This document shows, piece by piece, positions 38,827-59,654 of a DNA stretch of 59,733 nt. The notes under the pieces are model-generated. The model was not told where the DNA came from, did no database searches, and was given only the letters and a program-made list of their open reading frames with translations. The first letter of the stretch is position 1. Each line of letters starts with the position of its first letter. Position numbers and translations under genes: made by a program. Source of the stretch: Neocallimastix lanati (nom. inval.) (Eukaryota > Neocallimastigomycota > Neocallimastigomycetes > Neocallimastigales > Neocallimastigaceae); assembly GCA_016946835.1 (NCBI GenBank), contig JACVTC010000286.1, positions 1-59,733 on the forward strand, written 5' to 3'.

Positions 38827-38864
38827 ACTTCAAGGGACGAAGTCTAAACTTAACGGGGGCATCA

Positions 38865-39465: not shown

Positions 39466-39470
39466 CCGTT

Positions 39471-40209
39471 TGTAATAATACAAAATTAATACTTAACTTT
39501 TATTAAAATAACAATAATTGATAAAAAATATTTCGAGTTTATTAAGAAATTTTATTATATATTATTTTCTAAATAATAACTCTTGATTTTTATTTTATAG
39601 AAAAAATCAAGGTTATTTATAATTTTTTTTGTTCATAATCTTAAAAGTTATTCTTTCAGGAAAAAGATTATGAGAAAAAACCTGAAAGATAAAATAAATT
39701 AATTATTTATTATTTAATATAATTTAATATTATTTAATATTATTTAATATTATTTAATATTATTTAATATTATTTAATATTGGCAATTAACCAATATTTT
39801 ATGAAATTATTTATTATGATGTTTTAAGTTTATAATTATTAACTAATTTTATATTAATTTAATATTAATTATATTAATATTAAATGTTTTAATATAATTA
39901 ATCACGTATTATTGTTAATGATAAATCAAATGATTAATTATTTATATTAAATAGAAATTGGTTATTAATTAAAGATATTGTTTATATTTCATAATAATTA
40001 ATTATTAATTAGTTAAAAAATTAATTTTATCAATTAATAATTATTTTTATTTTATTATTTAATAACAATTATTAAAATTATAGTATATTAAATAATATTA
40101 AGTGTTATTTTATTGAAAAATTATTTAAATCTTAATTAATAATAAAAATAAATATAATATTTATATTATATTTGGTTAAGTGTGACTAATTAATTAGTCA
40201 ACACTTACA
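39471..40209 (+). mobile_element. solo LTR, family K (739 bp)
   Basis: Begins TGTAATAATAC and ends ACACTTACA (TGTAA/TTACA inverted termini). It is flanked by ccgt(t) at 39466-39470 and ccgt at 40210-40213. There is no internal region. It contains a short tandem array of attatttaat units (39720-39780). Orientation is assumed to match its neighbours. Confidence 0.72.
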
Positions 40210-40213
40210 CCGT

Positions 40214-41185
40214 TGATAAAGAATGCCCAAATAATGTTCTTTTGGTTATGCATCTTAAATGATTCATTTAACCCTTAAACAAATTATTTGATTCTTTATT
40301 CTTTTGGAACTTTCTATATTCTAATAAATTAATCTATATTCCTAATTAGTACAAATTAAATTATACTATTTAAAAAAGTATATTTAAAATTAATTCCTTA
40401 TCTATGCTACCTTTATTATTCTTATCTATATTTTATTATTATTAAAATCCTTATCAATATTATATAGTTTATTTTATCAATTTTCTTTATAGTTTATCAA
40501 AATCTTATCAATATTTCTTTTATTAATATTAAACTTATCAATATCAATTATTTCTTTGGAAAATTCCAAATTAAAAAAAATTGTATTAATGATTACTAAT
40601 AAAAGATTAAACATAAAAGGAAATAATTATATTATTATTATATGTTTTATTATAAATATTATATTATAAATTTGATGAAATGATTATAATTTTTATATTA
40701 ATAATTTAAATAATATTATTTTTCTAAACTTAGTAAAATTTAACTTTAGGATTAAATAAATATTACTAAACCACAGAATTAACTTCTGTAAAATAAAAAA
40801 AATTTGTCTTTTAAAATATATAATTAAGTAGATTAGTAATAAATAATTAGTAATAGATTAATATATAAGTATTATTTATTATAAGTTAAATAATAATTAT
40901 ATTAATAATAAAAAATTAATATAAAATATTTAATAATTAATTTTTATTATACAAAGAAATGGCTTTACCATTTCTATTATTTTAAGAAAAAAAAAATATA
41001 AATAACAGTAAAAAAAATTGTATTTTTTATATTGTAAATTAATATTGTAATTTTTAAATAAAATTTTAATAAAGGATTTATAAAACAAAAATTTATTTTG
41101 TTTATTAATTTTCTTGTTTGTTTATTTTTTTTTGTTGTTTATATTAATACTTATTTTTATTTTTCCCTCTCTCCGAACCTTAACA
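40214..41185 (+). repeat. El-6 5' LTR
   Basis: 972 bp, TGATAAAGAATG...CCTTAACA. The opening TGATAAAGAATG is also the start of the El-2 LTR in element sense, indicating related families. Confidence 0.92.
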
Positions 41186-41192
41186 TAAAATT

Positions 41193-41209
41193 TGGTGGAG
41201 ATATCGGGG
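41193..41209 (+). other. El-6 primer-binding site for tRNA-Ala
   Basis: TGGTGGAGATATCGGGG, 7 nt after the 5' LTR; one mismatch to the tRNA-Ala 3' end encoded at 29674-29745. Confidence 0.88.
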
Positions 41210-41363
41210 AGAATAAAATTAAAAATAAGATAATATAAATAATATTAAAATAAATATATTTTTCTTAAAAAAACAATTTTTTTTTATATTTCGAAGTGTT
41301 AGATAATTTATATTATCCGTGAAGCTTCGAATAAATTTTAAATTTTATCTTTTTTTTATTTTT

Positions 41364-41625
41364 CTTGGGCATTGGAGTTAGTACGATTTAGAAGCGTACT
41401 TATCTCAGAACTCAAGAAGTAGAGGGTTTTCGGGTTAATTACTCTTAAGAATTAATTGTAGTGACAATTATTCTTAAGCTCTGGTCGTTCTGTTTAATAG
41501 TAAGCAGAAGCGCCTGGTGTAAGCACCACATGAAGCCGTAATAGGCGAGCTGGGTTGACTTACATACTACCACTCTACGTTCTGTTTTAAGTACGGAAAA
41601 TTTCCGGAAATGCCGTTGTTCAAGA
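41364..41625 (+). other. El-6 leader, structured block 1
   Basis: A GC-richer stretch with many short complementary segments: gtacgatttagaagcgtac, taattactcttaagaattaatt, gcgcctggtgtaagcaccac and gaaaatttccggaaat. No open frame. Probably folded RNA (packaging, dimerisation or translation control); the role is not shown by sequence. Confidence 0.55.
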
Positions 41626-41879
41626 AATAATTAATTAATGATAAAATTTAATTTTTTTTAAGTATTTTATAATTTAAATTTTAACTTTTTTTTAGAGTAA
41701 TAAATAAAAAAAAAAAAAAAAAATTTTTTTTTTATAATACAAATAATAATATTAATAATATTTTTATTCTAATAAATATCCAAAATTTTAAATAGAATTG
41801 AAAAAGAACATTTGAGGAAGCTACTTTGTTTAATTTAATATTGATAATTGAAATATTCTTTTCTTATCAAGATTGAATT

Positions 41880-42065
41880 AAACAAGTTATATTCAGCATA
41901 AACAAGCCTTACTAGCTGTCAAGAGGGGGATAGTAGGGGTAATATTAAGATCCTGAAGCGTGTGACGGAACATAGATCACGTGAATAAGGTGACGGAATG
42001 AATATTATCGGACGAAAGACCCATAAGCTAGTGGTTTATAATATAACTTGGTCGGTAATTCAACT
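41880..42065 (+). other. El-6 leader, structured block 2
   Basis: A second GC-richer stretch, containing tcaagagggggatagtaggg, similar to tccaggagggggagtacggg in the El-7 leader (50902-50924). Between blocks 1 and 2 is an A/T homopolymer segment (41707-41733). No group I intron core was recognised. Confidence 0.5.
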
Positions 42066-42144
42066 TGATAATAACAATATTAAATTAATTTTTTTTATAA
42101 AAATAAGCTTCTAAATAAAAAAAAATAAATTTAAGTAAATTCAA

Positions 42145-42147
<3 letters not shown>

Positions 42148-42180
<33 letters not shown>
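42148..42180 (+). repeat. Poly(A) run of about 33 nt in the El-6 leader
   Basis: Uninterrupted A just before the hairpin pair. El-2 and El-7 also have long A runs in sense at comparable leader positions. Confidence 0.92.
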
Positions 42181-42183
<3 letters not shown>

Positions 42184-42185
42184 CT

Positions 42186-42277
42186 GTTGAGTGGGTCGAA
42201 GAGGAATTCGAGCTCAACTAGTAAATTATTAATATATTTTCATCGTTAAGTGGGTCGAAGGGGAATTCGAGCTTAAC
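42186..42277 (+). ncRNA. Two related stem-loops in the El-6 RNA leader
   Basis: Hairpins at 42186-42218 and 42245-42277. Outer stems GTTGAG/CTCAAC and GTTAAG/CTTAAC differ by a compensated G-C to A-T change. Each then has a T-G closing pair, a GGG bulge, inner stem TCGAA/TTCGA and a 6-nt purine loop (GAGGAA, GGGGAA). This is the same architecture as the five El-2 hairpins. From 42278 to the gag ATG the leader is plain AT-rich DNA. Confidence 0.85.
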
Positions 42278-42560
42278 TATTCTACGAATTGATATATTTG
42301 GTGGTCAAGTTGACGCTAGTTTATATCTTAAATTTATTTGGTTGTTGAATCCATTGTTTACTACTTATTCAAAATAATTAAATTGATAACTTTTGGCTAA
42401 TTTATTATAAAAAAATAAAACTCTACTACTCAAGAAAAATACATTGAGGTTATTAATCAAATCTTTATTACCTGGTAACACAAAAATATTTTTTTTAATA
42501 TAACTATTAACCTTGTATACTCTACTTGATTCATTACTACTTCTTTCAATAAATTCAAAC

Positions 42561-43499
42561 ATGTCGGAAAACTCTTCTTCTGATAGTGGTGGCTCGTCTA
42601 GTGCATCACCCTCTATTCCCAGTCCAGTAGCTATAAATAATAGTCGAATTAATTTTAAAGACTTAAAGAAGGAACTTAAGGGAATAGAAAAACTTAGTAA
42701 AGACAACTTAGATATAAAATCCTGGGCCTCTGAACTAAAATTATGGATCAGATATCAGCAAGTGGTTGATCCAGAAACAATATTTATAGCTTGTATTTTG
42801 ACTTCTACCGGTGAAATAAGAGAAATCATCCAAGATATGGAAAATGATAATATCTTTAGTGATGATGATAATGACGAAGATAATAACATCGGTGATGACA
42901 ATATTCATAATTTCCCAAGTTTAGACAAAATTGTGGACGAATTAGAAAAATTCTATGGCCTAAAAGAAGATCAAAATGTTCTACTCAGAGAACTTCGTGC
43001 ACTTAAAATTAAAAGGAACGAAAAAGTGAAAGATTTTAATATACGCTACCGAACTCTTTACCACAAGTTGGATATTAAAAGAAGAAAACGAATTAGTGTA
43101 TTAGACTATGCCGACTCATTACAAAATAATAAAGAGGCATGGAAAAGAGTTTCCCTTAAGGATAATATTTCTCTCAATAAAGCCTTTGAAATAGCGGAGA
43201 AAGTAGATAGACTTATTCCTAAAATTGCTTATGATTCAGACGAAAATACTTATCCTCACTATAATAAGCCCTCCAATTTTAATAAAAAGAAATTTAAACA
43301 GAAATCTTTCTCAGAACCAAGAAAGCCAGTAAAAGATTCAGATGTTGAAGATCTAACAAAACGAATGAAAAACTTAACTATTAGTACATGTTTCTTCTGT
43401 ACGGAAAAAGGTCATTATCAGAATAACTGTCCTAAGCTTAAAGCGATTGTTGATAAAAATCGCCAAGAATATTTCGAAAATAAAAATTTAAATCACTAA
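42561..43499 (+). CDS. El-6 Gag (312 aa)
   Basis: The start is the ATG at 42561 (MSENSSSD); the open frame extends upstream only to a TTG. Serine-rich N-terminus, then INFKDLKKELKGIEKL...DIKSWASELKLWI near 33-65, an acidic aspartate-rich segment near 105-125, core LLRELRALKIKRNEKVKDFN near 140-165, and one CCHC knuckle CFFCTEKGHYQNNC near 278-291. It ends KNLNH, with TAA three nucleotides after the slippery heptamer. A typical Ty3/gypsy capsid-nucleocapsid precursor, most similar to El-2 and El-7 Gag. Confidence 0.93.
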   Translation: MSENSSSDSGGSSSASPSIPSPVAINNSRINFKDLKKELKGIEKLSKDNLDIKSWASELKLWIRYQQVVDPETIFIACILTSTGEIREIIQDMENDNIFSDDDNDEDNNIGDDNIHNFPSLDKIVDELEKFYGLKEDQNVLLRELRALKIKRNEKVKDFNIRYRTLYHKLDIKRRKRISVLDYADSLQNNKEAWKRVSLKDNISLNKAFEIAEKVDRLIPKIAYDSDENTYPHYNKPSNFNKKKFKQKSFSEPRKPVKDSDVEDLTKRMKNLTISTCFFCTEKGHYQNNCPKLKAIVDKNRQEYFENKNLNH

Positions 43500-43519
43500 A
43501 AGGGAGAAGAAGCACTCCC
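43487..43519 (+). promoter_or_regulatory. El-6 gag-pol -1 frameshift signal
   Basis: TTTAAAT (43487-43493) in phase TTA AAT CAC TAA, an 8-nt spacer, then GGGAG, an 8-nt loop and CTCCC (43502-43519). Pol is open in the -1 frame from here. Confidence 0.88.
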
Positions 43520-46500
43520 ATCGTCAATAAAATTGCTTCAGTCAAATTTCAATCAACCTTAGAAGAACCACAACAAAATCACCTTCAAGAAGTAATAAGT
43601 ATGGAATCAGAATCAGAAAATGAAGAAGAATTTCATACTGAAAAAGTAAGTAAATCTGACTTAGAAGAAAATGAAAGTTATTTATGCGCTGCAATTAAAC
43701 GAAAAAAAGATGACAAACTAGAATCTAGTCCAGGAAAGAAAATACATCGAAGTCTTAAAGATAATCCTAGACCAATTGCAACACCTGCATTAAGAAAGAA
43801 AAAAGAAAATGAACTAATGGAAAACCCAAAGCAAAAATCAACTCGGAGTCAGATCCACCCATCAATACTTACGCAACCTTTAATTAATAAGGAAAAAGAA
43901 AAAGAGCTACGTGATAAAGAACGAGCTAATACTTCAAAAAGACAAGTTAAAACTATTGAAATTGACAAATCAGAAACTAATAATATTATTGATATTACTT
44001 CAAATAATACTCCTGATAATACAACAGAACAAACTTTAACAAAATTGGTGAATGATAAAATTAATAATAAATCTTCTATAACCAAAACTGCAAGAGTACC
44101 AAGAATTCTTCAAATGATTGCGAATCAAAAACCTTATGATGTTATTGAAGATCTGAATAACATCAAATGTAATATTACCTTAGCCCAACTACTAGATGTG
44201 TCTCCAAAAGTAAAGACCAAAGTCATACAAGGCTTAAAATTTGAAAAAGACCAAACAAAAATTTCTGGTGCTGTAAACAATGTTTGTGCTACGACTATCT
44301 TAGTAAATAATATTGATCATACATATAAGAGTAAGAATATAGAACCTAATGAAGATGATATCGCAATGGTAGACGTTGAGGTAGATGGAGTAAAAGGAAA
44401 AGCTTTAATGGACTCCTGTAGTAACCTTAATATCGTAACACAGCAATTTTTGGATAAACTTCCTACAACTTATGAACCTATCGATGTTAGTTGCGGTAGA
44501 ATTCGATTAGCTACCCAAAATGAAGAATACTCAGAAGATTACATTGTCCAAATTCCCTTAAAAATTAATAACTTTGAAATGATAGCTAAATGCAGAGTAG
44601 TTGATAAAGAAGACCCGTTCTATGATATTCTTATTAATTTAAAAACTTTAGTAGATTATAAATTATTTATCCATCCAACATTGTATAGTCTCTGTTATAT
44701 GAATGATAATGGACTTATTGATGTTATAGCTCCAATTAACAACACTTATGATGAAGAAGAAAAATTAATGTGTGTATTAAAAGCAATACCTGATGAAAAC
44801 AACAACGATCTTAAGAAAATAGAAGGTTTACCTCCTAAAGAATATATTCATAACAAAAAGTTCACTGACTCCCTTAATAAAATGTTCAGAGAACAAATTA
44901 TACAACTGCTTGAGGATTATTTAGTAATTATAGCCACCTCATCTGAAGAATTAACTCCTTCTGACTTATCACCACATAAAATTAGATTAAAATCTGGTGT
45001 AAAACCAATTAAACAGAAATATTATAGAGTAACCAAATATAAATCTGATATTCTAAAAGAAGAACTTACCAAATTGATCAATAAGAAACTAATTGAACCG
45101 TCGTATTCAGAGTGGTCCTCACCAGTAGTTTTAGTTCCTAAACATAATGGAAAGTGGAGAATGTGTATCGACTACCGAAAAGTAAATGATGTTACCATTA
45201 AAGACTCTTACTCTTTGCCAAATATTGATGAAATTTTCGATAGCTTAGATGGAGCCAAAATTTTTACTACAATGGATCTCTATTCTGGTTACCATCAAAT
45301 ACTAATGGATGAAGAAAGCGTTGAAGTAACCAGTTTTACTACTAAGTTTGGTAATTACCAATTCAAGGTAATGCCTTTCGGATTAACTGGAGCTCCTGCT
45401 ACCTTCCAAAGAGAAATGAATAAGATTCTCTTTCCTTACATTGGTGAATTTGTTTTTAACTTCATTGACGATATTTTGATCTATTCAAAAACAGTTGAAG
45501 AACATCTCGATCACATTAAGAAAGTATTAGACGTATTCAAGGAACATAAACTCAAGATCAACATTGAAAAATGTTCTTTCATGCAATCTGAAGTAGAAGT
45601 TCTAGGTCACAAGGTATCTGACAAAGGCTTAAGTCCTCTGGATAGCAAAATAGAAGCTATGAAAAAATGGATAGCACCTACTGATCTCCATGAATTACGA
45701 TCCTTCTTAGGAGCAATTGGATACTACAGAACTTTTATCGATAAATATGCACAGATCACAGCTCCTCTTTGTAAGTTATTGCGAAAAGGTGTTAAGTACC
45801 AATGGAAAGATGAACAAGAGAAAAGCTTTAAAATGCTTAAGGAAAAATTAATGAATGCCCCAATTCTAAAATTCCCTTCTTTCAATAAAGAGTTTATTAT
45901 AAGAACTGATGCGTCCTATGATGGAGTAGGTGGTGTACTACTACAAAAGAATGAAGAAACTAACAAAGAACACCCAATTCATTATACGAGTCGAACACTA
46001 ACCAAAAGTGAGAAAAATTACGGAATAACTGATTTAGAAGGAACAGCCTTATTCTACTGCTTAACTAAATTCAAATCATATATAATGGGAAATCCTCATA
46101 AAACTATTATATATACAGACCATAAACCCTTAGTCGGACTGTTCAACAAGAAAGAACCAACAAATGCTAGACAAACTAGATGGTGCATGGCTGCTAACCT
46201 TTTGGGGGTTGAAATCTGCTATGAATCAGGTAAAAAGAATGTTATTGCAGATGCCCTATCAAGAATGAAGAATGACACTGACAAGAAGGTATTAGTTACC
46301 AAAATTACAAAAGAAGTCGACGAATCTCTTTTATCTAAAGTAGTAAAAGAATTTATTGAAGAAAAGTTTACTATAATCGATGGTGTTGAATATTTCATAG
46401 ATGGAAATATCTACCGAAAATTAGTTACTGATCTTAACGAAAAATTAAAGCTAATTCTAGAAGCCCACCAAATCGGTCATGAAGGTTATCACAAAACTTA

Positions 46501-47485
46501 TCAACGACTTAGGAAAAGCTATTACTGGAATGGTATGGTAAACGACATTAAGAGGATTATAGCTAAATGTGAAAAGTGCCAATTGAATAAACCTCAACCA
46601 TATCCAAAACCAACAGAAGATATTCCAACTGAAGTGGAAGGACCCTTTACTCACCTTGGTCTTGATATAATTGGACCTTTAGAGAAAACTTCCAACAACA
46701 ATCAATATATTATGGTGGTAGTCGATTATTTCACCAAGTGGGTTGAAGCCGAACCTACAGAAAATGTAACCTCTAAAGAAGTTATAAAATTCCTTATCAA
46801 TGTTTTTGCACGCCATGGAGTACCTCAAGTGATTACTACGGACAATGGTGTCCAATTTACTTCCGATATGACCAAGATATTCCTCGATCTCTATGATGTA
46901 TACGTGAAATTTAGTACCACTTATCACCCTGAAACTAATGGACTCACAGAGAATAGAAACAAAGAGATAGGAAAATTACTTCGACTTCTAAGTGAAAAGC
47001 ACAAGGAATGGGATGAAGTACTACCTTCTGCTTTATGGGCCCTTCGTACTACCAAGAATTCTGTCACTAATCATTCAAGTTTCGAGCTGGTATATGGAAG
47101 AGAAGACCAGCAACCTTTCGATATCGCTGCAAGACCTACTATAGGAATAAACAAGTCATCTGATGAGATCTTACTCGAAAAGTTTGTTAACCACTACTTA
47201 TGGACAACAGAAGCCGCTGCAAATGTGAAAAATGCGAATAAATATTGGGCCAATAGAAGAGAAAGCAAGAACAGCATGAATCAAGCTAAAAATATTAGGC
47301 CTGGAGACTTAGTCTTAGTCCGAAATTTTTCTAGAACCAAACTTGAACCATATTTTGTTGGACCCCTTCAAGTATTAAAGAAACAATTCAATACGGTAAC
47401 TCTTGTGGACCCTAAATCTGGAATCCAAATGAACCGCAATGTCCATTTAAAGAATATAGTAAAGTTTAACTCAGCTTCTGTATAG
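43493..47485 (+). CDS. El-6 Pol (protease, RT, RNase H, integrase), via -1 frameshift
   Basis: Open for 1330 codons from the heptamer; an in-frame ATG at 43601 exists, but the frame is continuous upstream of it. Approximate residues: IHRSLKDNPRPIATPALRKKK near 80; NITLAQLLDVSPKVKTKV near 228; protease LMDSCSN near 305, with DSC; RT with FIDDILIYS near 656; RNase H RTDASYDG near 803; HHCC near 993-1030; D, D, E near 1055, 1114 and 1152; EPYFVGPLQV near 1285. No chromodomain. No stop or frameshift is seen, so the element could be functional. Confidence 0.94.
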   Translation, partial: SLKGRRSTPIVNKIASVKFQSTLEEPQQNHLQEVISMESESENEEEFHTEKVSKSDLEENESYLCAAIKRKKDDKLESSPGKKIHRSLKDNPRPIATPALRKKKENELMENPKQKSTRSQIHPSILTQPLINKEKEKELRDKERANTSKRQVKTIEIDKSETNNIIDITSNNTPDNTTEQTLTKLVNDKINNKSSITKTARVPRILQMIANQKPYDVIEDLNNIKCNITLAQLLDVSPKVKTKVIQGLKFEKDQTKISGAVNNVCATTILVNNIDHTYKSKNIEPNEDDIAMVDVEVDGVKGKALMDSCSNLNIVTQQFLDKLPTTYEPIDVSCGRIRLATQNEEYSEDYIVQIPLKINNFEMIAKCRVVDKEDPFYDILINLKTLVDYKLFIHPTLYSLCYMNDNGLIDVIAPINNTYDEEEKLMCVLKAIPDENNNDLKKIEGLPPKEYIHNKKFTDSLNKMFREQIIQLLEDYLVIIATSSEELTPSDLSPHKIRLKSGVKPIKQKYYRVTKYKSDILKEELTKLINKKLIEPSYSEWSSPVVLVPKHNGKWRMCIDYRKVNDVTIKDSYSLPNIDEIFDSLDGAKIFTTMDLYSGYHQILMDEESVEVTSFTTKFGNYQFKVMPFGLTGAPATFQREMNKILFPYIGEFVFNFIDDILIYSKTVEEHLDHIKKVLDVFKEHKLKINIEKCSFMQSEVEVLGHKVSDKGLSPLDSKIEAMKKWIAPTDLHELRSFLGAIGYYRTFIDKYAQITAPLCKLLRKGVKYQWKDEQEKSFKMLKEKLMNAPILKFPSFNKEFIIRTDASYDGVGGVLLQKNEETNKEHPIHYTSRTLTKSEKNYGITDLEGTALFYCLTKFKSYIMGNPHKTIIYTDHKPLVGLFNKKEPTNARQTRWCMAANLLGVEICYESGKKNVIADALSRMKNDTDKKVLVTKITKEVDESLLSKVVKEFIEEKFTIIDGVEYFIDGNIYRKLVTDLNEKLKLILEAHQIGHEGYHKTYQRLRKSYYWNGMVNDIKRIIAKCEKCQLNKPQPYPKPTEDIPTEVEGPFTHLGLDIIGPLEKTSNNNQYIMVVVDYFTKWVEAEPTENVTSKEVIKFLINVFARHGVPQVITTDNGVQFTSDMTKIFLDLYDVYVKFSTTYHPETNGLTENRNKEIGKLLRLLSEKHKEWDEVLPSALWALRTTKNSVTNHSSFELVYGREDQQPFDIAARPTIGINKSSDEILLEKFVNHYLWTTEAAANVKNANKYWANRRESKNSMNQAKNIRPGDLVLVRNFSRTKLEPYFVGPLQVLKKQFNTVTLVDPKSGIQMNRNVHLKNIVKFNSASV

Positions 47486-47508
47486 CTTGAGTCTTAGTGG
47501 GGGCATCT

Positions 47509-48480
47509 TGATAAAGAATGCCCAAATAATGTTCTTTTGGTTATGCATCTTAAATGATTCATTTAACCCTTAAACAAATTATTTGATTCTTTATTCTTTT
47601 GGAACTTTCTATATTCTAATAAATTAATCTATATTCCTAATTAGTACAAATTAAATTATACTATTTAAAAAAGTATATTTAAAATTAATTCCTTATCTAT
47701 GCTACCTTTATTATTCTTATCTATATTTTATTATTATTAAAATCCTTATCAATATTATATAGTTTATTTTATCAATTTTCTTTATAGTTTATCAAAATCT
47801 TATCAATATTTCTTTTATTAATATTAAACTTATCAATATCAATTATTTCTTTGGAAAATTCCAAATTAAAAAAAATTGTATTAATGATTACTAATAAAAG
47901 ATTAAACATAAAAGGAAATAATTATATTATTATTATATGTTTTATTATAAATATTATATTATAAATTTGATGAAATGATTATAATTTTTATATTAATAAT
48001 TTAAATAATATTATTTTTCTAAACTTAGTAAAATTTAACTTTAGGATTAAATAAATATTACTAAACCACAGAATTAACTTCTGTAAAATAAAAAAAATTT
48101 GTCTTTTAAAATATATAATTAAGTAGATTAGTAATAAATAATTAGTAATAGATTAATATATAAGTATTATTTATTATAAGTTAAATAATAATTATATTAA
48201 TAATAAAAAATTAATATAAAATATTTAATAATTAATTTTTATTATACAAAGAAATGGCTTTACCATTTCTATTATTTTAAGAAAAAAAAAATATAAATAA
48301 CAGTAAAAAAAATTGTATTTTTTATATTGTAAATTAATATTGTAATTTTTAAATAAAATTTTAATAAAGGATTTATAAAACAAAAATTTATTTTGTTTAT
48401 TAATTTTCTTGTTTGTTTATTTTTTTTTGTTGTTTATATTAATACTTATTTTTATTTTCCCCTCTCTCCGAACCTTAACA
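47509..48480 (+). repeat. El-6 3' LTR
   Basis: 972 bp. The polypurine tract TTAGTGGGGGCATCT ends at 47508. Confidence 0.92.
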
Positions 48481-48484
48481 CCGT

Positions 48485-49496
48485 TGGTAAAGAATGAATT
48501 AATAACCTATATTTTATTATTAATAATTCTTTACTAAATTGTACTTTCCTATATTCTTCATAACCTAAACCTCATTGTAAATTTAATTTATTTTGATATA
48601 AATTAATTTACACTTGTAAATAATGTAAATAAATTTTAATTAATTACTTTATTGTTATATTATTAAATATATGTATATTAAAATACAATTGTAAATATTA
48701 AAATTATACTTTTAAGATACTAAACTATTAAAACTATTAAATATTATTATAAAAATTATTATAAAATTATTAAAATTATTAATTAAATATTATTCTAAAA
48801 ATTATTATAAATTATTAATATTATAAAATTATTAAAATTATTAAATATTATTATAAAAATTTATATATTATAACTATTAAATATTATTATAAAATTATTA
48901 AGATTATTAATTAAATTTATTATTAAAAATTATTATTAAAAATTTTTACTTATTATAAAAATTATTATTTAAATATTATCAAATTTATTAATTAAATATT
49001 ATAAAAATTTTATTTTATTTTGAAAATAATTACAAGTATTATTTAAAATAATTAAAGATTATTAAATTTATTATATTAATCTTTAAAAACAATTTATTTA
49101 ACTTAAAAATATCAAAGAAAATAGTAAAAACTATTTTCTATATATTTATTTTATAATTATTTTTAATTAAATTATATTTGAATATTATATTATTATATTT
49201 ATAAAAATTAAAACAAAAATGAATTATTGATATAAAATTAATTCAATAATTCTATAAAATTACTTAAATTATAAACAATTAATTATACTTTAAATTTATA
49301 AAAAAATATAAATATTGTAACAATTTCTTAAAAATTAAATATGTGTACTTTAAATAAAAAAAAAACTTTTATATTAATAAAAAAAATAAATAATTTTTAA
49401 TAAAGAAAGATTTATTTTTTTTAAAATCAAAGCAGGGTAATACCCGTCCCCCCCTGCTTGATTTTAAATATCTAAGTGTCAACCCCGAGTCTACCA
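48485..49496 (+). repeat. El-7 5' LTR
   Basis: 1012 bp, TGGTAAAGAATG...GTCTACCA. Near its end gcagggtaatacccgtccccccctgc includes complementary parts that may form a hairpin. Confidence 0.9.
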
Positions 49497-49500
49497 AAAT

Positions 49501-49517
49501 TGGTGGAGATATCGGGG
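49501..49517 (+). other. El-7 primer-binding site for tRNA-Ala
   Basis: TGGTGGAGATATCGGGG, only 4 nt after the LTR (7-8 nt in the sister elements). Confidence 0.87.
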
Positions 49518-49523
49518 AAGAAG

Positions 49524-49555
<32 letters not shown>

Positions 49556-49556
49556 G

Positions 49557-49588
<32 letters not shown>

Positions 49589-49951
49589 GACCAAGTGGAA
49601 GAAGACCAAGTGGAAGAAGACCAAGAAAAAGAAGACCAAGAAGTAGACCAAGTGGAAGAAGACCAAGAAAAAGAAGACCAAGAAGAAAACCAAGAAGAAG
49701 ACCAAGAAGAAGACCAAGAAGAAAACCAAGAAGAAAACCAAGAAGAAAACCAAGAAGAAAACCAAGAAGAAAACCAAGAAGAAGACCAAGAAGAAGACCA
49801 AGAAGAAGACCAAGAAGAAGACCAAGAAGAAGACCAAGAAGAAGACCAAGAAGAAGACCAAGAAGAAGACCAAGAAGAAGACCAAGAAGAGGAAGACCAA
49901 GAAGAGGAAGACCAAGAAGGAGAAGACCAAGAAGGAAATTGGAACTACTAG
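49518..49951 (+). repeat. GAA / 12-bp (gaagaagaccaa) minisatellite in the El-7 leader
   Basis: Starts directly after the primer site with (GAA)n and passes into about 25 copies of a 12-bp unit, with variants such as gaagaaaaccaa. One frame reads as an EEDQ repeat but begins only at GTG, and the opposite strand is also open, as any stop-free 12-mer array would be. Treated as a repeat expansion and not a gene. The other elements have nothing similar here. Confidence 0.9.
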
Positions 49952-50026
49952 GACTTATTTTTTTTTTGGAATTATTAGAATAATTTTTTTAAATTAAATT
50001 TAATAGAATTAAATTAAATTAAATTA

Positions 50027-50031
<5 letters not shown>

Positions 50032-50100
<69 letters not shown>
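50032..50100 (+). repeat. Poly(A) run of about 65 nt in the El-7 leader
   Basis: One of three long A runs in this leader; the others are at 50689-50714 and 50757-50780. Confidence 0.93.
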
Positions 50101-50105
<5 letters not shown>

Positions 50106-50222
50106 CACACTTTTACATTCATCATCATATTTTTTTTTATTGTTATCGGTTTTTGTGTTGTTGTTGTGGTTGGTGTTGTTGTTGTGATTGTTGTTGTTGT
50201 GGTAGTAATAAAAATTAACATC

Positions 50223-50530
50223 AGTTTTATTTGGTCTTCAAGTGCTCCAAATAAAACTATATACTGAGTGTACTGCGTACTAAGCAGTTATAGATAATTC
50301 TATAATTGCGAGTGGTTTAATCAGGTGTTTGGAGAGGGGCCGGTTACGAACTAATCGAACCCCGATTAGATATAGCGGTAAATACTGTTGGGAAGCAGAA
50401 ATTACCCTATAGATCACCCATTATACGTTCAACACGGTTTGGGTGCTCCTCCACTTGACTCAGGCAAATTCACTTAGTATACCGAAATACTAAGGTCCCT
50501 CTGCGTGGTCGGCAGTTGTAATAGATAGCG
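50223..50530 (+). other. El-7 leader, structured block with 12-bp hairpin
   Basis: AGTTTTATTTGG (50223-50234) pairs perfectly with CCAAATAAAACT (50247-50258) around a 12-nt loop. The rest is GC-richer, with further complementary segments, for example atactgagtgtactgcgtactaag and cacttagtataccgaaatactaag. No open frame. Confidence 0.6.
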
Positions 50531-50749
50531 GTTTTTCAAGTTGTATTAGGTTTGTTAATTTACCTTGTTTTTAATTAAGTTTATTTGTTTTTTTTAAGTT
50601 GTAATTATATAAACTTAATAATAATTGTAATTGTAATTGTAATTGTAAATATTGTAATAATAACCGATAACAAATAAATAAATAAATAAAAAAAAAAAAA
50701 AAAAAAAAAAAAAATATTAATTTTTGTGTTTTTAAATATTTTTAATTGC

Positions 50750-50781
<32 letters not shown>

Positions 50782-50829
50782 TTTTTTTTGTAAATAATTG
50801 TATATATTTTTTTTATTTAAGTAAAGATA

Positions 50830-50985
50830 AACGAAAGGGGTTATTAGCTTGAAAGAATAGTGAACACTCCAACTAGTTTATTAATTTATATTTATTCTAG
50901 TGTCCAGGAGGGGGAGTACGGGTGTATATAGCAAAATTAAATATACACTAGCCGGAAACGTCTCACTAGAGATATAAATTACTTA
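50830..50985 (+). other. El-7 leader, second GC-richer block
   Basis: Contains gtgtccaggagggggagtac, resembling El-6 41917-41937, and a tgtatat...atatacac complementary pair (50933-50956). Function unknown. Confidence 0.5.
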
Positions 50986-51104
50986 AATATATAATTTTAA
51001 TTGTAAATAAATAAATAAATAAATAAAAATATAGCAATTAAATAATTAATAAAACAATTTTTTTATTTTATTTTTTTTTAAAAGTGTGTTTTTTTTTTTT
51101 TAAA

Positions 51105-52043
51105 ATGAGTACAATTAATTTTAAAGATTTAAAAAAAGAACTTAAGGATATTGAAAAAATATCCAAAGAAAATTTAGATGTTAAAACTTGGAAGTCTGAT
51201 TTAGAGCTTTGGATAAAGCTTGAACATGTTGAAGACTCCAAGATTATATTTTATGCCTGTGTTTTAACCTCAATTGGTGAAACCAGGAAAGTCATCCAAG
51301 AATTAATGGATGATAATAATAAAGATGATGATAGTGATGATGATGATGATGATGATGATAATTATAAGGATATTAATGATGAAGATGAGGATGATGATAA
51401 TGAAGAAGATAAAGAAATTGATAAAAAGAATAAGGCTTATCCTTCCCTTAATAGAATTGTAAAAGCGATAGAAGAATTTTATGGCATTAGGGAGGATCAA
51501 AATAATTTATTAAGAGAGCTACGTGCTCTAAGAATTAAGAGAAATGAAAGAATCAAAGATTTTAATATTAAGTATAAAACTTTATATTTAAAATTAAATA
51601 AAAAGAAAAGAAGTCAGATAAGTGTTTTAGATTACACAGACTCCATTGAAAACAATGTTGAAGCCTGGAAACGTCTAACCTTATTTGATAACATTTCTCT
51701 GTCAAAAGCCTTTAAAATTGCTGAAAAAGCAGATAGGTTAAATTATATGGGTAGTAATCAAAGAAGACATCCTTCTACCCCTTCACCTTCTGCAAATACA
51801 TCTTCTTTTAGTAATAGAGTTAATTTTCATCCTCCTATTAAAAATAAATTAGAACAAAAAGTTAATATTAAACCTAAAGAAGATAATGACATAGAGGAAT
51901 TAACAAGAAAAATGAGAAGTTTAACAATAAAGGCTTGTTATTTCTGTAAAGAACCAGGTCATTATCAAAACAATTGCCCAAAGTTGAGAGCAATTGTTGA
52001 GAAAAATAGGAAGGAAATTAGAAACAATAAACGTTTAAATTGA
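51105..52043 (+). CDS. El-7 Gag (312 aa)
   Basis: The start is the ATG at 51105 (MSTINFKDL), since the upstream extension lacks an ATG. INFKDLKKELKDIEKI...DVKTWKSDLELWI opens the protein. A very acidic D/E run lies near 75-115, with core LLRELRALRIKRNERIKDFN near 145-165. The CCHC knuckle is CYFCKEPGHYQNNC near 283-296. It ends KRLN with TGA immediately after the slippery heptamer. The frame is intact, although pol of the same element is broken. Confidence 0.92.
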   Translation: MSTINFKDLKKELKDIEKISKENLDVKTWKSDLELWIKLEHVEDSKIIFYACVLTSIGETRKVIQELMDDNNKDDDSDDDDDDDDNYKDINDEDEDDDNEEDKEIDKKNKAYPSLNRIVKAIEEFYGIREDQNNLLRELRALRIKRNERIKDFNIKYKTLYLKLNKKKRSQISVLDYTDSIENNVEAWKRLTLFDNISLSKAFKIAEKADRLNYMGSNQRRHPSTPSPSANTSSFSNRVNFHPPIKNKLEQKVNIKPKEDNDIEELTRKMRSLTIKACYFCKEPGHYQNNCPKLRAIVEKNRKEIRNNKRLN

Positions 52044-52068
52044 GTAATGGGATAAGAAGCTCTCCCAT
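52034..52068 (+). promoter_or_regulatory. El-7 gag-pol -1 frameshift signal
   Basis: TTTAAAT (52034-52040) in phase TTA AAT TGA, 8 nt to GGGA, a 10-nt loop, TCCC (52049-52066). Flanking AT/AT extends the stem to ATGGGA/TCCCAT. Pol is in the -1 frame. Confidence 0.85.
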
Positions 52069-54028
52069 ACTTAATAAAGCAGCTTCACTTAAATATCAAA
52101 AAGAAATTAAAAATTCTCGTCTTTCTAATATTGAAGAAACTCCTGCTAATAAAAGGGTGGTTAATAAAAAGAAAGTTGATTATTTAGTAGGAGCATCTAA
52201 ACGTAAAATTTATGATGTTAATAATGGTGAAGGTAGTGCAGAGAAAAGGATTCATAAGTCGTTGAAGGAGAATCCTAAACCTATAATAACTCCTGCATTA
52301 CGGAAACAGAAAGAACGAGAAGTAAAAGAAAATAATATAAGTAATAAAATTGTTAAACAAATTAAACCATCTATTCTAGCTCAACCACGAATTGAAAAAG
52401 AAAAAGAGATTGAAAGACAAATTCGTGATAATGAAAGAGCTAGTAATAGTAATACTAATTATAGTAATAATCATAGTAATGATAATAGTAATGATAATAT
52501 TAATAATAATTCATTAGTGAATGATGAAGTTATTGTAAATAATATAAATAATGATAAAAGAAAGAATAAAAATTTAATGAAAGAAAATAATGATAATAAT
52601 AAAAGTATTGTGAAGGAGAATAATAAAGTAATTGATTTAACTAGGGTGTTAAATAGTAAAGATAAAGATACTCAAAAAGAAACTAAAAGTTCTAGGGTAT
52701 CTAGGAAAATTAAGATGCAATCGGGGGAAGAAGAATATGATATTCTTAAAGATTTAAATTCTGCCCATTGCAATATTACTTTTGGACAGTTATTGGATGC
52801 TGCTCCAAAATTAAGATATAAGGTGTCACAGGGTATTAAATTGGATAGGGACCAATCTAATATCTCTGGGGTGTTGGATAATGTGTCAGCCACGACTGTG
52901 GTCGTTAATAACATAGACCACACTTATAAAAGTAAAGGTAACGAACCATGTGAAGAGGATATTGCCATGGTTGATGTTACAGTTGAAGGTGTTTCGGGGA
53001 AGGCTTTAATTGATTCATGTAGTAATTTAAGTATAATTACTCAACAATTTTTAGATAAGCTTCCGTCCGAATATGAACCTATTGATATTAGTCGTGGCAG
53101 AATTAGGTTGGCAACTAAGAATGATGATTACTCGGAAGGTTATATCATTCGGGTGCCAGTAAAGATTAATAATCTTGTATTAATGGTTAATTGTAGAATA
53201 GTAGAAAAGGAGGATCCTTTTTACGATATTCTAATTAACTTAAAAACCCAAATTGATTATAATTTGTTTATCCACCCCATTTTATATAGTTTGTGTCAAA
53301 TTACTCCTGAGGGAGTAATTGACGTTATTGCACCTATTAATAATGATTATGAAGATGAAGAAAAGTTGTTGTGTATGATTAAGGCTTTGGATGAGGATTC
53401 CAAAAAGAATGATTTAAAGAAAATTGAAGGATTATCCCCAAAGCAATATATTCATCATGAAATTTTCCTAAATACTTTAAACGAAAAATATAAAGATGAA
53501 ATAATTAAAATTCTGGAGGAGAACTTAGAAATAGTTGCTACTTCTTCAGAAGAATTAACACCTTCTGATCTTCCTCCACATAAGATTAATTTAATTCCTG
53601 GTGCGAAACCAGTTAAGCAAAGGTGCTATAGATTAGTTAAATTTAAGTCGGATATACTTAAGGAGGAATTAATTAAATTAATTAATAAGAAATTAATTGA
53701 ACCTTCTTGTTCCGAATGGTCATCGCCAATAGTGTTAGTACCGAAGAAGAACGGTAAATGGCGATTATGTATTGATTATCGTAAGGTTAATGATTTAACA
53801 GTTAAAGATTCTTATTCATTACCTTACATTGATGAGATATTTGATAGTTTAGATGGGGCACAGATTTTTACAACAATGGATCTTTACTCTGGTTATCATC
53901 AAATTTTGATGGATGAGGAAAGCGTAGAAATTACCACCTTCACCACAAAATTTGGTAACTACCAATTCAAGGTTATGCCTTTTGGTTTAACCGGAGCCCC
54001 AGCTACATTTCAAAAGGGAAATGAATAG
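52040..54028 (+). pseudogene. El-7 pol, part 1 (protease and N-terminal half of RT)
   Basis: Open from the frameshift signal for about 660 codons. It has IHKSLKENPKPIITPALRKQK near 75, a long asparagine/lysine tract near 140-215, NITFGQLLDAAPKLRYKV near 245, protease LIDSCSN near 325 (DSC), and RT up to APATFQ. An A run at about 54010-54013 has one base more than in the sister elements and throws the frame into a stop within a few codons. Confidence 0.9.
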
Positions 54029-55781
54029 GATTCTTTTCCCATTTATAGGAAAGTTTGTTTTTAACTTTATAGATGATATTTTAATATACTCTAAGAGTAT
54101 AGAAGAACATATAAGCCACATTAGGCAAGTGTTGGAAGTATTTCGCCAACACAAGTTAAAAATTAACATTGAAAAATGTGCCTTTATGCAGACTGAAGTA
54201 GAAGTCTTAGGTCATAAGGCATCAGTGAAAGGTTTAAGTCCCCAGGATAGCAAAATTAAGGCTATCAAGGAGTGGGTAGCACCTGTTGATGTTCATGAAT
54301 TACGATCTTTTCTTGGAGCGGTAGGATATTATAGAAACTTTATTGATAAATATGCTCAAATCTCTGCTCCTTTATGTAAATTATTAAGAAAGAATGTTAA
54401 ATATAAATGGAATAATGAACATCAACAAAGTTTTGATCTGTTAAAAGAAAAATTAATAAATGCTCCAATTTTAAAATATCCAAGTTTTAATCAAAGGTTT
54501 ATAATTAGAACGGATGCTTCCTATGAAGGTATTGGAGGAGTATTACTCCAAGAAGATTTAGAAACCAAAAAGGAACATCCAGTTCATTATATAAGTAGAA
54601 GTTTAAGTAAAGCCGAGAAAAATTATGGCATTACTGACTTGGAAGGAGCTGCATTAATTTATTGTATTACTAAGTTGAAATCTTATATATTAGGAAATCC
54701 TAATAAAACAGTAGTAATAACAGATCATAAACCTTTAATCAGTTTCTTTAAAAATAAGGAACCTAATAATGCTAGGCAAGCAAGGTGGTGCTTAACTGTT
54801 AGTACCCTTGGTGTTGAAATTCAATATCAAATGGGTAAGAAAAATGTGTTAGCCGATGCATTATCTAGGATGAAGAAAAGAGATGATTCCGTGGTATTGG
54901 CAACTAAGTTAACTTCAAAGGAAGAAGAAGAGTTGCTTTCTAAAACTATTAAAGACTTTATAAATGAAAAATTTGTTACGATAGATGGTGAAGATTATTT
55001 TGTTGATGGTAATGACTATCGTAAATTAATTACTGATCAAACGGAAAGAGTAAAACTTATTTTAGAAGCCCATAAGATAGGTCATGAGGGATATTATAAG
55101 ACTTATCAAAGGCTTCGTAAAAGTTTTTATTGGAATAATATGGTGATGGATATTAAAAGAGTGGTGCAAAGTTGTGACAAGTGTCAGTTGAATAGGTCAC
55201 AACCATATCCAGAACCTACAGAAAATATTCCAACTAAAGTAGAAGGTCCTTTTATACATTTGGGTTTAGATATTATTGGACCTTTGATTAAAACGAAGAA
55301 TAATAATCAATATATTATGGTTGTGGTGGATTACTTCACCAAATGGGTTGAAGCAGAACCCACGGAAAATATAACATCACAGGATGTGATTAAGTTCTTA
55401 ATTAATGTGTTTGCTCGTCATGGTGTTCCACAGGTAATAACAACTGACAATGGTGTTCAGTTCACCTCGGACATGACGAAAATATTTTTAGATCTCTATG
55501 ATGTATATGTGAAGTTTATTTCCACATATCATCCTGAAAGTAATGGACTTACGGAAAACCGTAATAAAGAGATCGGCAAGTTATTGAGGTTGTTGGGTTC
55601 TAAGAATAAGGATTGGGATGAAGTTTTACCATCCGCCTTATGGGCTCTTAGAACTACCAAAAATAAGGTAACAAAACATTCAAGTTTTGAGTTGGTTTAT
55701 GGTAGGGAGGATCAGCAGCTTTTTGATATGCTGCTAGACCTACCAAGGATATTAATAAGTTATCGGATGAAGTGTTGTTAG
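54021..55781 (+). pseudogene. El-7 pol, part 2 (rest of RT, RNase H, integrase core)
   Basis: Begins at MNRILFPFIG, overlapping part 1 in another frame. It contains FIDDILIYS near 18, RNase H RTDASYEG near 168, HHCC near 355-395, and D, D, E near 417, 477 and 515. It is interrupted near 55730, where one base is missing compared with the equivalent of El-6, so the last residues diverge. Confidence 0.9.
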
Positions 55782-56089
55782 AAAAATTTATAAATCATTA
55801 CCGATGGACTTTAGAAGCAGCCGAAAATGTTAAAAATGCAAATAAGTATTGGGCTGCTAGAAGAGAGGAAAAGAATAGTTTGAATGAGGGAAAAAGAATT
55901 AGGGAAGGTGATTTAGTTCTAGTTAGAAATTTTTCAAGAACTAAACTAGAACCTTATTTTGTTGGTCCTCTTAAAGTTATAAAAAAACAATTTAATACGG
56001 TTACCTTGGCTGATCCAAATTCTGGAATTCAAATGAATAGGAATGTTCATTTGAAGAATATAGTCAAGTATAACTCAGCTTCGATGTAG
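55772..56089 (+). pseudogene. El-7 pol, part 3 (integrase C-terminus)
   Basis: Continues the integrase after the second indel: EKFINHYRWTLEAAENVKNANKYWAARRE, then the EPYFVGPLKV module and a NRNVHLKNIVKYNSAS ending as in the other elements. Both indels could also be assembly errors; one lies in a homopolymer. Confidence 0.88.
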
Positions 56090-56112
56090 CTTGAGTTTTA
56101 GAGGGGGCATCA

Positions 56113-57096
56113 TGGTAAAGAATGAATTAATAACCTTTATTTTATTATTAATAATTCTTTACTAAATTGTACTTTCCTATATTCTTCATAACCTAAACCT
56201 CATTGTAAATTTAATTTATTTTGATATAAATTAATTTACACTTGTAAATAATGTAAATAAATTTTAATTAATTACTTTATTGTTATATTATTAAATATAT
56301 GTATATTAAAATACAATTGTAAATATTAAAATTATACTTTTAAGATACTAAACTATTAAAACTATTAAATATTATTATAAAAATTATTATAAAATTATTA
56401 AAATTATTAATTAAATATTATTCTAAAAATTATTATAAATTATTAATATTATAAAATTATTAAAATTATTAAATATTATTATAAAAATTTATATATTATA
56501 ACTATTAAATATTATTATAAAATTATTAAGATTATTAATTAAATTTATTATTAAAAATTATTATTAAAATTTTTACTTATTATAAAAATTATTATTTAAT
56601 TATAAAAATTTTATTTTATTTTGAAAATAATTACAAGTATTATTTAAAATAATTAAAGATTATTAAATTTATTATATTAATCTTTAAAAACAATTTATTT
56701 AACTTAAAAATATCAAAGAAAATAGTAAAAAATATTTTCTATATATTTATTTTATAATTATTTTTAATTAAATTATATTTGAATATTATATTATTATATT
56801 TATAAAAATTAAAACAAAAATGAATTATTGATATAAAATTAATTCAATAATTCTATAAAATTACTTAAATTATAAACAATTAATTATACTTTAAATTTAT
56901 AAAAAAATATAAATATTGTAACAATTTCTTAAAAATTAAATATGTGTACTTTAAATAAAAAAAAAACTTTTATATTAATAAAAAAAATAAATAATTTTTA
57001 ATAAAGAAAGATTTATTTTTTTAAAATCAAAGCAGGGTAATACCCGTCCCCCCCTGCTTGATTTTAAATATCTAAGTGTCAACCCCGAGTCTACCA
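56113..57096 (+). repeat. El-7 3' LTR
   Basis: 984 bp. The polypurine tract GAGGGGGCATCA ends at 56112. Confidence 0.9.
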
Positions 57097-57100
57097 CTGT

Positions 57101-57890
57101 TAATACAGAATGAACAAATAATACTAATTGTGCTAGAATAATATAAATTATTCTAACCTTATAGATTATTCTATTCTATATAATTGGAACTTTCCAATAT
57201 TCTTCAAATATTACTAAATAGAAATCTTAAGTTAATAAATCACTAATTAACTTATAATTCCTTTTTGAATTATCGATCCGATTCCATTATAATGTATTAA
57301 AAATCTTTAGCCAAGAATATTGTCCTTGCCCACTTAATATATTAATATTATATTTCTTTTGTATTATGTTATATTGAAAATAATCAAATCTATTTAATTA
57401 GTTATTAAAATTTTCGTTATCAATTTAAATTTATTTTTAATTACTAAATTTAACTAAACCACAATAAAATATTCTGTATAATCTCTTTATTTTTATTTTA
57501 TATATATTAGTATTAAACTATTATTAAATAATTAATAATTCAATAATATATAACTACTATTTATAACAATAATATTATTAACTAAAATAATAATTCAATT
57601 TCAATTTAAATGTTTTATTTATAAAAATAATTAGTAATTAGTTTATTAAAAAAATAGTTAGGCTTTACAAATTTTAATTTGATAAAAAAATATAAATACA
57701 TGTAATTTTAGTGAAATAAAATATAATTAATAACTTTCTTTTTATTAAATAAATAATTATATTATTATTTTTCTTTTATAAATTTAAATAAATAAATATT
57801 GATTTTAAAACAAATTATTTTTTTTTTTATTGTAATTTTATTATTTGTGTTAATTATTATTATATTCCTAAAATTATATGAACCATGCCA
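57101..57890 (+). mobile_element. solo LTR, family B
   Basis: TAATACAGAATG...CCATGCCA, the El-4 LTR family in the opposite orientation. Flanked by ctgt on both sides (57097-57100 and 57891-57894). Confidence 0.88.
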
Positions 57891-57894
57891 CTGT

Positions 57895-58683
57895 TAATAC
57901 AGAATGAACAAATAATACTAATTGTGCTAGAATAATATAAATTATTCTAACCTTATAGATTATTCTATTCTATATAATTGGAACTTTCCAATATTCTTCA
58001 AATATTACTAAATAGAAATCTTAAGTTAATAAATCACTAATTAACTTATAATTCCTTTTTGAATTATCGATCCGATTCCATTATAATGTATTAAAAGTCT
58101 TTAGCCAAGAATATTGTCCTTGCCCACTTAATATATTAATATTATATTTCTTTTGTATTATGTTATATTGAAAATAATCAAATCTATTTAATTAGTTATT
58201 AAAATTTTCGTTATCAATTTAAATTTATTTTTAAATACTAAATTTAACTAAACCACAATAAAATATTCTGTATAATCTCTTTATTTTTATTTTATATATA
58301 TTAGTATTAAACTATTATTAAATAATTAATAATTCAATAATATATAACTACTATTTATAACAATAATATTATTAACTAAAATAATAATTCAATTTCAATT
58401 TAAATGTTTTATTTATAAAAATATTAGTAATTAGTTTATTAAAAAAATAGTTAGGCTTTACAAAATTTTAATTTGATAAAAAAATATAAATACATGTAAT
58501 TTTAGTGAAATAAAATATAATGAAAAACTTTCTTTTTATTAAATAAATAATTATATTATTATTTTCTTTTATAAATTTAAATAAATAAATATTGATTTTA
58601 AAACAAATTATTTTTTTTTTATTGTAATTTTAATTATTTGTGTTAATTATTATTATATTCCTAAAATTATATGAACCATACCA
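57895..58683 (+). mobile_element. solo LTR, family B (second tandem copy)
   Basis: TAATACAGAATG...CCATACCA, with small differences from the preceding copy. Flanked by ctgt (57891-57894 and 58684-58687). Confidence 0.88.
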
Positions 58684-58687
58684 CTGT

Positions 58688-59651
58688 TGATAAATAACAA
58701 AATTATTAATTAAAATAATAATAAAAAAACAAATTCTGTCTAACTTAACCCAAAAATTAATCCATTCTAAAAAAAAATTAAATCCATATTTAAGAAAAAT
58801 TAATTAAATAAAAATAATTAAAATAAAATAATAATAAATTAATTAATCATTAAGAATTTTAATTAAAAACTAAAATAAATTAATAAATAATATTTTCTAA
58901 GACTACAAATAAACAAAATAATAAACAAATTTAATAAATTATAAATAACAAATAAACAAACTTATAAACATCTCAAAATTAAAATTAACTAGTTAAATAA
59001 TTTTTTAATTACTTTTATTTAAAATAATGATTATTTTATTTATTTTATAACTCAACTTTTATAAACAAATTTAATTAAAATAACATTTAAAACTCATCTT
59101 TATCAACATTTTAATTGTAAATATTGTTTAATTTAATAATAAATTATTCTTTATTTCTCTTTTATTAATTTTATTATTTTTAATGTAAATAGTTTAAAAT
59201 CAAAGAAAAATATAAAAACATGTAAATATTTCTTATAATTATTCCTTTATTATTAATTATTTAATAAATTATTATAAATATTTTATTAGTTTTAATAATC
59301 AAGTTTTTTTATGATTATTAATTAGTTAATAAATTATTATAAATATTTTATTAGTTATAATAATCAATTTTATTATTAAAATTTAAAATAAATTAGTATA
59401 AATAATAAATATTTCTTTTATTATTTTATTAGTTTTAACAATTATTTTATTACTTTACACAAAATTAATTATTAAATAAATAAAGATTAATATTAAAATA
59501 AAAATAAATTTTTTTAATAAAACATTTTGTGTTTAATAATAAAACATATTTATTTTTTTAAATTTCTTAAATTAATTTTATTCAGTATTTATCCTTTTAT
59601 TCACTTCTGCAAAATTTAATTTTGTAGATTAAGAATATTAGGTATAAATCA
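58688..59651 (+). mobile_element. LTR, family D (about 964 bp)
   Basis: TGATAAATAAC...TATAAATCA, with ctgt before and ctg(t) after. No coding region. A second copy starts immediately after it. Confidence 0.68.
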
Positions 59652-59654
59652 CTG

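Follow-up and report, generated by a model that had tools for sequence, protein, structure and literature searches.

A stack of long terminal repeat retrotransposons in Neocallimastix lanati as a probable record of repeated insertion at one Pol III-type target

How do long terminal repeat (LTR) units of several families come to stand end to end with nearly the same few bases between them? The question is raised by contig JACVTC010000286.1 of the Neocallimastix lanati (nom. inval.) assembly GCA_016946835.1. The window, meaning the whole stretch that was analysed, is 59,733 nucleotides long (C208:1-59733; G+C content 25%), and its right part is an array that starts beside a transfer RNA (tRNA)-like module. 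Rightward from this module the tiling is CCAT, El-5, CCGT plus T, K (minus strand), CCGT, El-6, CCGT, El-7, CTGT, B, CTGT, B, CTGT, D, CTG and D, where El-5, El-6 and El-7 are elements and the remaining units are LTRs of families K, B and D. A first-pass annotation of the same DNA had reported CCGT or CTGT at the junctions, one 4-base-pair (bp) spacer throughout and plus-strand orientation for every unit that could be oriented. Read straight from the sequence, the window junctions do give CCGT three times, CTGT three times and finally CTG plus the first T of the second D unit. A 4-bp spacer of this kind thus stands at most junctions, but not at this last one or between El-5 and K, where the spacer is CCGTT. 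K is on the minus strand, judged from other copies, in which the TGTAAG end comes after a purine tract and points toward tRNA genes in three of four. With K reversed and its LTR bounded as in Table 1, CCGTT is the exact 5-bp duplication of K. On its tRNA side El-5 is flanked by CCAT, one base from CCGT, and the flanks of El-7 are unlike too (CCGT/CTGT).

We consider it very probable that the array was built by serial insertion directed to an RNA polymerase III (Pol III)-type target, a tRNA-like module in the LTR of a copia-type element, with the target-site duplication (TSD) recopied at the promoter side and the stack growing there. Each Ty3-type element would integrate a fixed few bases upstream of the Pol III-type promoter, yielding a 4-bp TSD, with the 5' end facing the promoter. 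As the internal A and B boxes would set this position, the promoter-side copy of the TSD would remain the target, and the next element, from any of these families, would land on that copy and duplicate it again. With growth at the promoter side, each spacer would be a further copy of one target, and the layers would be older the farther they lie from the promoter. By analogy with Ty3 (PMC8632968), Pol III would bind such modules, and TFIIIB or TFIIIC would guide the integrases.

Copies of the families were searched for in the genome (199 Mb, 762 contigs), and the best-scored were taken from each search (40 scored out of 219 to 6295 candidates). El-6, El-5, B and K were collected in this way, El-7 and D mostly as neighbours of those. 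Elements with identical flanks were merged (63 to 59), and near-identical contigs may persist; the TSD counts are based on the 59 elements for which both outer flanks are available, among them members of this array. In families El-5, El-6, El-7, B and D, 37 of 49 elements have identical 4-bp flanks (window and contig C80 included; the window array supplies three of the 37), and flanks agree at other lengths in 4 of 49 (5 bp) and 6 of 49 (3 bp). For K, the two flanks match over 5 bp in 9 of 10 elements. When flank partners were shuffled 2000 times, the mean was 2.0 and the maximum 7 of 49 identical 4-bp flanks; the chance of two random duplications agreeing among the 49 elements is 0.044. This TSD pattern agrees with the earlier proposal that insertions returned to one tetranucleotide and copied it each time.

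Spacers vary across loci and are constant inside most of the stacks examined: GTTA stands at four junctions on C755, TTAT at three on C738, CTTT on both sides of B on C13, and, next to a tRNA-type gene on C146, TGTA three times. GGAG flanks El-7 on both sides on C112, C27 and C403, which may be one locus. Since right-array spacers are all CNGT-like except CCAT, the tetranucleotide might instead be part of the LTR end or a sequence preferred by integrase. This has almost no probability in our estimate: GTTA, TTAT, TCTT and TTTT occur at other loci, and CNGT precedes the El-6 LTR start only once genome-wide, in the window, so that the spacer is part of the target and its reading as LTR sequence was rejected. 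Random 4-bp flanks at other copies had been set in the first-pass annotation as a point against repeated integration; they are misplaced there, because the model itself predicts different flanks at different targets.

The same copies show where insertions lie. Among 78 distinct 5' flanks of LTRs, 26 contain a tRNA gene, a 5S ribosomal RNA (rRNA) gene or a tRNA-like module. The list was made with a regular expression and then corrected by hand: false positives L015, L022 and L048 were removed, and L065, L095, L106, L085 and the tRNA-Ala copy, which the expression had missed, were restored by eye (B and K flanks are too short for Rfam). Only one of 76 3' flanks, at a K copy, faces a Pol III-type gene; inspection of these flanks by eye, 60 bases apiece, gave no additional gene. 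In the 4-bp families such a gene is present at 23 of 67 5' flanks vs 0 of 64 3' flanks. The LTR is separated from the mature RNA by 14-16 bp at eight tRNA genes (Thr, Met (two), Ala, Trp, Arg, Ser and one called by ARAGORN only) and 8 bp at one 5S rRNA gene, a narrow insertion zone upstream of tRNA and 5S genes of the kind seen in Ty3-like Pol III targeting. Orientation is equally regular: the 5' end points toward the gene in 23 cases and away in none (El-5, 10; El-6, 6; B, 7; P = 2e-7, with targets within one family not fully independent), and all 23 thus run away from the target. K gave 3:1, and El-7 and D gave no case.

In a further 42 of the 78 5' flanks the dinucleotide CA, which is how an LTR ends, lies at a distance of 3-4 bp (precisely 4 in 29 of them), against a background of 0-5 per offset in 52 flanks; CA at 5-6 bp, in five flanks, is at background level, and five show neither feature. 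These neighbours would also be expected if integrase docked on existing LTR ends, each attracting the next insertion with no Pol III promoter involved, and some K insertions do span the first bases of the neighbouring LTR. We regard docking as improbable, since it leaves aside the near-fixed distance of the Pol III-type genes and their near absence from 3' flanks, the entry of newcomers on the 5' side (below) and the stacks rooted at a Pol III-type gene on C13, C167 and C146 and in the window.

Which layer is younger cannot be read from plain shared TSDs, which are symmetric for order; only split or overlapping duplications inform. In the split test, the CA of the 5' neighbour lies 3 bp before the element, and the first base of the far TSD copy should be A if the element came second and may be any base if the neighbour did. 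Nine junctions had both sides known; one of them, C466, was mismatched at the last three bases, which leaves eight. A scripted test found a first base other than A in seven of these eight. C235 was set aside by eye because its CA is not an LTR end, and at six of the seven usable split duplications (C2, C13, C136, C167, C243 and C750) the 5'-side neighbour is the younger. For C167, TATT was predicted if K came second and AATT if B did, before the base was fetched; it reads TATT. Here K immediately adjoins a tRNA-Trp gene, and the interval that separates the two contains a copy of the first two bases of B. On C13, El-6 is younger than D and lies beside a tRNA-like module. On C750 the neighbour's own 5-bp duplication, with El-6's first two bases inside, recurs on the neighbour's far side. 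Insertion at the tRNA-proximal edge, as first proposed, is therefore borne out at these junctions; among them a Pol III-type gene is directly adjacent at C167 and C13 and is not in view at the others. A mirror test agrees in five of six matching rows, the exception being El-6 on C57, but it is weak because C13 is the same junction as in the split test and T is a frequent base genome-wide. In the window, the CTG/T junction fits the first D unit as the later one. A later arrival of K than El-6 was considered and withdrawn, as the extra T could also derive from El-7.

Other signs of order are less informative. The first-pass annotation had looked to LTR divergence and to intact elements near the module with solo LTRs farther away. 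In the window, LTR pairs differ at 0/601 positions in El-5, 1/972 in El-6 and 2/983 (plus 4 indels) in El-7; the direction is right, with far too few differences to test a gradient. Full-length vs solo by position is 10:5 vs 5:12 (P = 0.07; hand-set classes, one flank of unknown state dropped), which is not significant and was not used as support.

Could the array instead have been built by tandem duplication or by ectopic recombination between LTRs? Solo LTRs are common, and on C403 (L064, L059) El-5 sits on a paralog of the window target with flanks that do not match (TGAA and GGAG), as would follow from an exchange between two stacks at this element. We find this origin very improbable for the array, because adjacent units come from different families, in most cases each with an exact TSD of its own, and because registers shift by 1-2 bp on C122 (CTTTA, from CTTT and TTTA) and C762 (CTCTAC, from CTCT and CTAC); individual junctions may nevertheless have arisen by exchange. 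Part of the array recurs on C80 (339 kb), which carries El-6/CCGT/El-7, El-7/CTGT/B/CTGT/B and B/CTGT/D, followed by N. Counted strictly, four of seven window junctions (48481, 57097, 57891, 58684) are repeated there, and those at 39466, 40210 and 59652 are in the window only. Between the two contigs, the El-7 LTR and the first B have 0 substitutions, and the El-6 LTR is 99.7% identical, with a few substitutions.

The target of the array is, judged by its sequence, a tRNA-like A/B-box module in a copia-type LTR and not a host tRNA gene; the tRNA-like anchor of the first-pass annotation is kept in its A and B boxes, with an LTR as its location. At true tRNA genes the A box is mostly 21-24 and the B box 65-68 bases from the LTR (75 for tRNA-Ser); the window module has 22 and 66 and gave no Rfam hit at E<=1. 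Such spacing, and insertions that use the module like a tRNA gene, would also suit a decayed host tRNA gene whose location in an LTR is incidental. That origin seems quite improbable. The flank between module and El-5 has 206 exact copies genome-wide (reversed control, 0), and the 100 listed copies form 22 same-strand pairs vs 1 opposite at 3.5-7 kb; all but one of the same-strand pairs (21) are spaced 5.19-5.31 kb. Similar pairs, of the sort that LTRs form, are seen for the surrounding 620 bp (40 of 950 candidates scored), and a truncated copia-type open reading frame (ORF) lies just upstream of the target LTR in the window. Two further tRNA-like target types behave alike, one with 194 copies (37:1 same-strand to opposite pairs among 100 listed) and one with 47 (7:0). 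By eye, tRNA-like modules make up 11 of the 26 Pol III-type flanks, and eight of the 11 belong to the three paired types; the others are L049, L075 and L085. We lean slightly towards the view that the LTRs of some copia-type elements hold tRNA mimics that act as mobile landing pads, which would draw Ty3-type integrases to a retrotransposon end and away from host tRNA genes; Pol III-like targets would then spread with the elements, and the stacks would be layered records of insertion. The window module may have Pol III activity.

The bases at the target suggest a history. Among the 100 listed flank copies, 97 read ACTAACTG (state ACTG), two ACTAACCG (CCG) and one, the window, ACTAACCA (CCA). 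From far to near, the stack reads CTG, then CTGT, then CCGT, with CCAT as near flank. If base changes on the promoter side are inherited by later layers, the series CTG(T), CTGT, CCGT, CCAT would be the target's own history. In the simplest reading, the array began on the family state ACTG, the T of the second D unit was gained by overlap, and CTGT, CCGT and CCAT followed. On the C403 paralog CTG is followed by AA, so that T is not native there.

Several points weigh against serial insertion at the promoter side. The sample is of top-ranked, mostly young copies, and most stacks were not traced back to their root. No exact TSD is found in 12 of 49 elements of the 4-bp families: four of the 12 are split duplications; the copies differ at 2-3 bases in El-5 on C403, El-6 on C412 and B on C466, which look like recombination or deletion; the others have a single-base mismatch. 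The two LTRs of El-5 are identical although its TSD copies are not, and mismatches may therefore stem from recombination or from the integration event itself. Spacers are inconstant on C89 (CTAT, CTTT), in the window itself and on C408 (B/B, with TGTG and GCTG). Of the junctions used for order, C11 is undecided, and C57 could mean a younger element on the far side. Finally, in the left array of the window, the B element close to the tRNA gene (8/785) predates the A element farther out (4/988); as their spacers differ, these probably belong to separate stacks.

The left array itself (28874-29664 and 29673-29746) starts at a true tRNA-Ala gene, where B is flanked on both sides by ACTG, an exact duplication, and faces this gene with its 5' end. 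Junctions farther out read AAGT, probably a second stack joined on.

By Pfam, El-5, El-6 and El-7 are Ty3/gypsy LTR retrotransposons, with a zinc-knuckle gag, then reverse transcriptase, RNase H and integrase, and two LTRs; the zinc knuckle of El-6 is under the Pfam cut-off, and the pol of El-7 is interrupted. The best PDB relative of El-5 pol is Ty3 Gag-Pol (7q5b, E 4e-104). Among the 120 El-5 integrase relatives listed of 266, two are labelled Orpsp1_1, which we take to be Orpinomyces (80% and 51% identity), and one from Cetraspora is more distant (38%); the host is on this basis probably an anaerobic gut fungus. No chromodomain was found by sequence behind the integrase C-terminal domain in El-5 and El-6: El-5 pol ends five residues past the HLKNIVPY motif, and El-6 pol likewise a few residues past that domain.

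Several known systems are comparable, as far as the parts of their accounts drawn on here describe them. Ty3 of Saccharomyces cerevisiae inserts upstream of the Pol III start site, at a distance of a few bp, with a 5-bp TSD, and the C-terminal domain of its integrase is followed by a chromodomain that serves as ruler (PMC8632968). The present elements share its Ty3/gypsy pol, its position upstream of Pol III genes and its precise TSD; unlike Ty3, El-5, El-6, El-7, B and D have 4 bp (5 bp only in K), and all El-5, El-6 and B cases have one orientation. As El-5 and El-6 show no such ruler by sequence, the contact would have to differ. Tj1 of Schizosaccharomyces japonicus is likewise of the gypsy/Ty3 group and has a fixed orientation at Pol III genes, but in the same transcriptional direction as its target, whereas El-5, El-6 and B are divergent in 23 of 23 cases and have a 4-bp TSD; in that account its authors knew of no other wild-type LTR element with fixed orientation (PMC4600332). 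DGLT-A of dictyostelids is similar in inserting ~15 bp upstream of tRNA genes and in having no chromodomain, and the sections used describe no shared-TSD stacks, fixed orientation or LTR-borne targets (PMC5006619). Helenus terminal-repeat retrotransposons in miniature (PMC10886601) and Cassandra have LTRs with a tRNA-like or 5S-like Pol III module, to which the A/B-box module here, with no Rfam match, may correspond; they are short and non-autonomous, and the module is taken as their promoter (PMC10886601 for Helenus). Here, by contrast, the module is in LTRs ~5.3 kb apart, on the opposite strand, with copia coding sequence adjoining in the window copy, and serves as a landing site. A literature search aimed at stacking, and thin on subscription journals, found a table note on dictyostelids and no described TSD stacks, and the parts consulted of PMC5911963, PMC10085805 and PMC5391098 added nothing on them.

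Stacks with shared duplications give relative insertion order across families with no molecular clock, and they may record the target's own mutations. The single divergent orientation offers a new way to approach how integrase is held by Pol III factors. If LTR-borne tRNA mimics are indeed targets, the supply of safe insertion sites is itself mobile.

Table 1. Units and spacers of the right array and its target, in window positions
Feature	Position	Strand	Remarks
470-residue ORF of truncated copia-type element; its 3' LTR holds the target	31338..32750	+	Pfam Pol_BBD 4e-8; Retrotran_gag_2 3e-4 (under its cut-off)
3' LTR of copia-type element, boundaries approximate	32733..33356	+	32735-33354 recurs, frequently in same-strand pairs with a spacing of ~5.24-5.32 kb (40 scored among 950 candidates)
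tRNA-like module, A box and B box at tRNA spacing, putative array target	33268..33345	-	A box 22, B box 66 bases from El-5
Flank CCAT on tRNA side	33354..33357	+	direct reading
El-5, full-length Ty3-type element	33358..39465	+	LTRs 33358-33958 and 38865-39465, identical
Spacer CCGT + T, the K 5-bp duplication CCGTT	39466..39470	+	direct reading
K solo LTR, 5-bp TSD family, reversed	39471..40209	-	orientation from other K copies
Spacer CCGT	40210..40213	+	direct reading
El-6, full-length Ty3-type element	40214..48480	+	LTRs 40214-41185 and 47509-48480, 1 difference
Spacer CCGT	48481..48484	+	direct reading; identical on C80
El-7, Ty3-type element, pol split in two ORFs (52040-54028, 54021-55781)	48485..57096	+	LTRs 48485-49496 and 56113-57096
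Spacer CTGT	57097..57100	+	direct reading; identical on C80
B solo LTR 1	57101..57890	+	
Spacer CTGT	57891..57894	+	direct reading; identical on C80
B solo LTR 2	57895..58683	+	
Spacer CTGT	58684..58687	+	direct reading; identical on C80
D solo LTR 1	58688..59651	+	
Spacer CTG; fourth base of the D1 duplication is the first T of D2	59652..59654	+	direct reading
D LTR 2, cut by window end	59655..59733	+	

Some smaller observations concern the same families. Another D stack with CTGT is found at C78:160230-162115. On C235 and C411 (L032, L007), El-6 stands tail to tail with El-7, and the duplication TGGT was taken from the final four bases of El-7; insertion into an LTR end of this kind is rare. 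The primer-binding site TGGTGGAGATATCGGGG occurs in El-6 (41193-41209, +), El-7 (49501-49517, +) and B (28849-28865, -). It is complementary, with one mismatch, to the 3' end of the window tRNA-Ala (CCA assumed), so these three may use tRNA-Ala as primer; the El-5 site differs. At 1545-8376 of the window, an element with ATATG on both sides interrupts a B LTR, whose fragments are at ~770-1544 and 8377-8391; the insertion is not at the start of this LTR.

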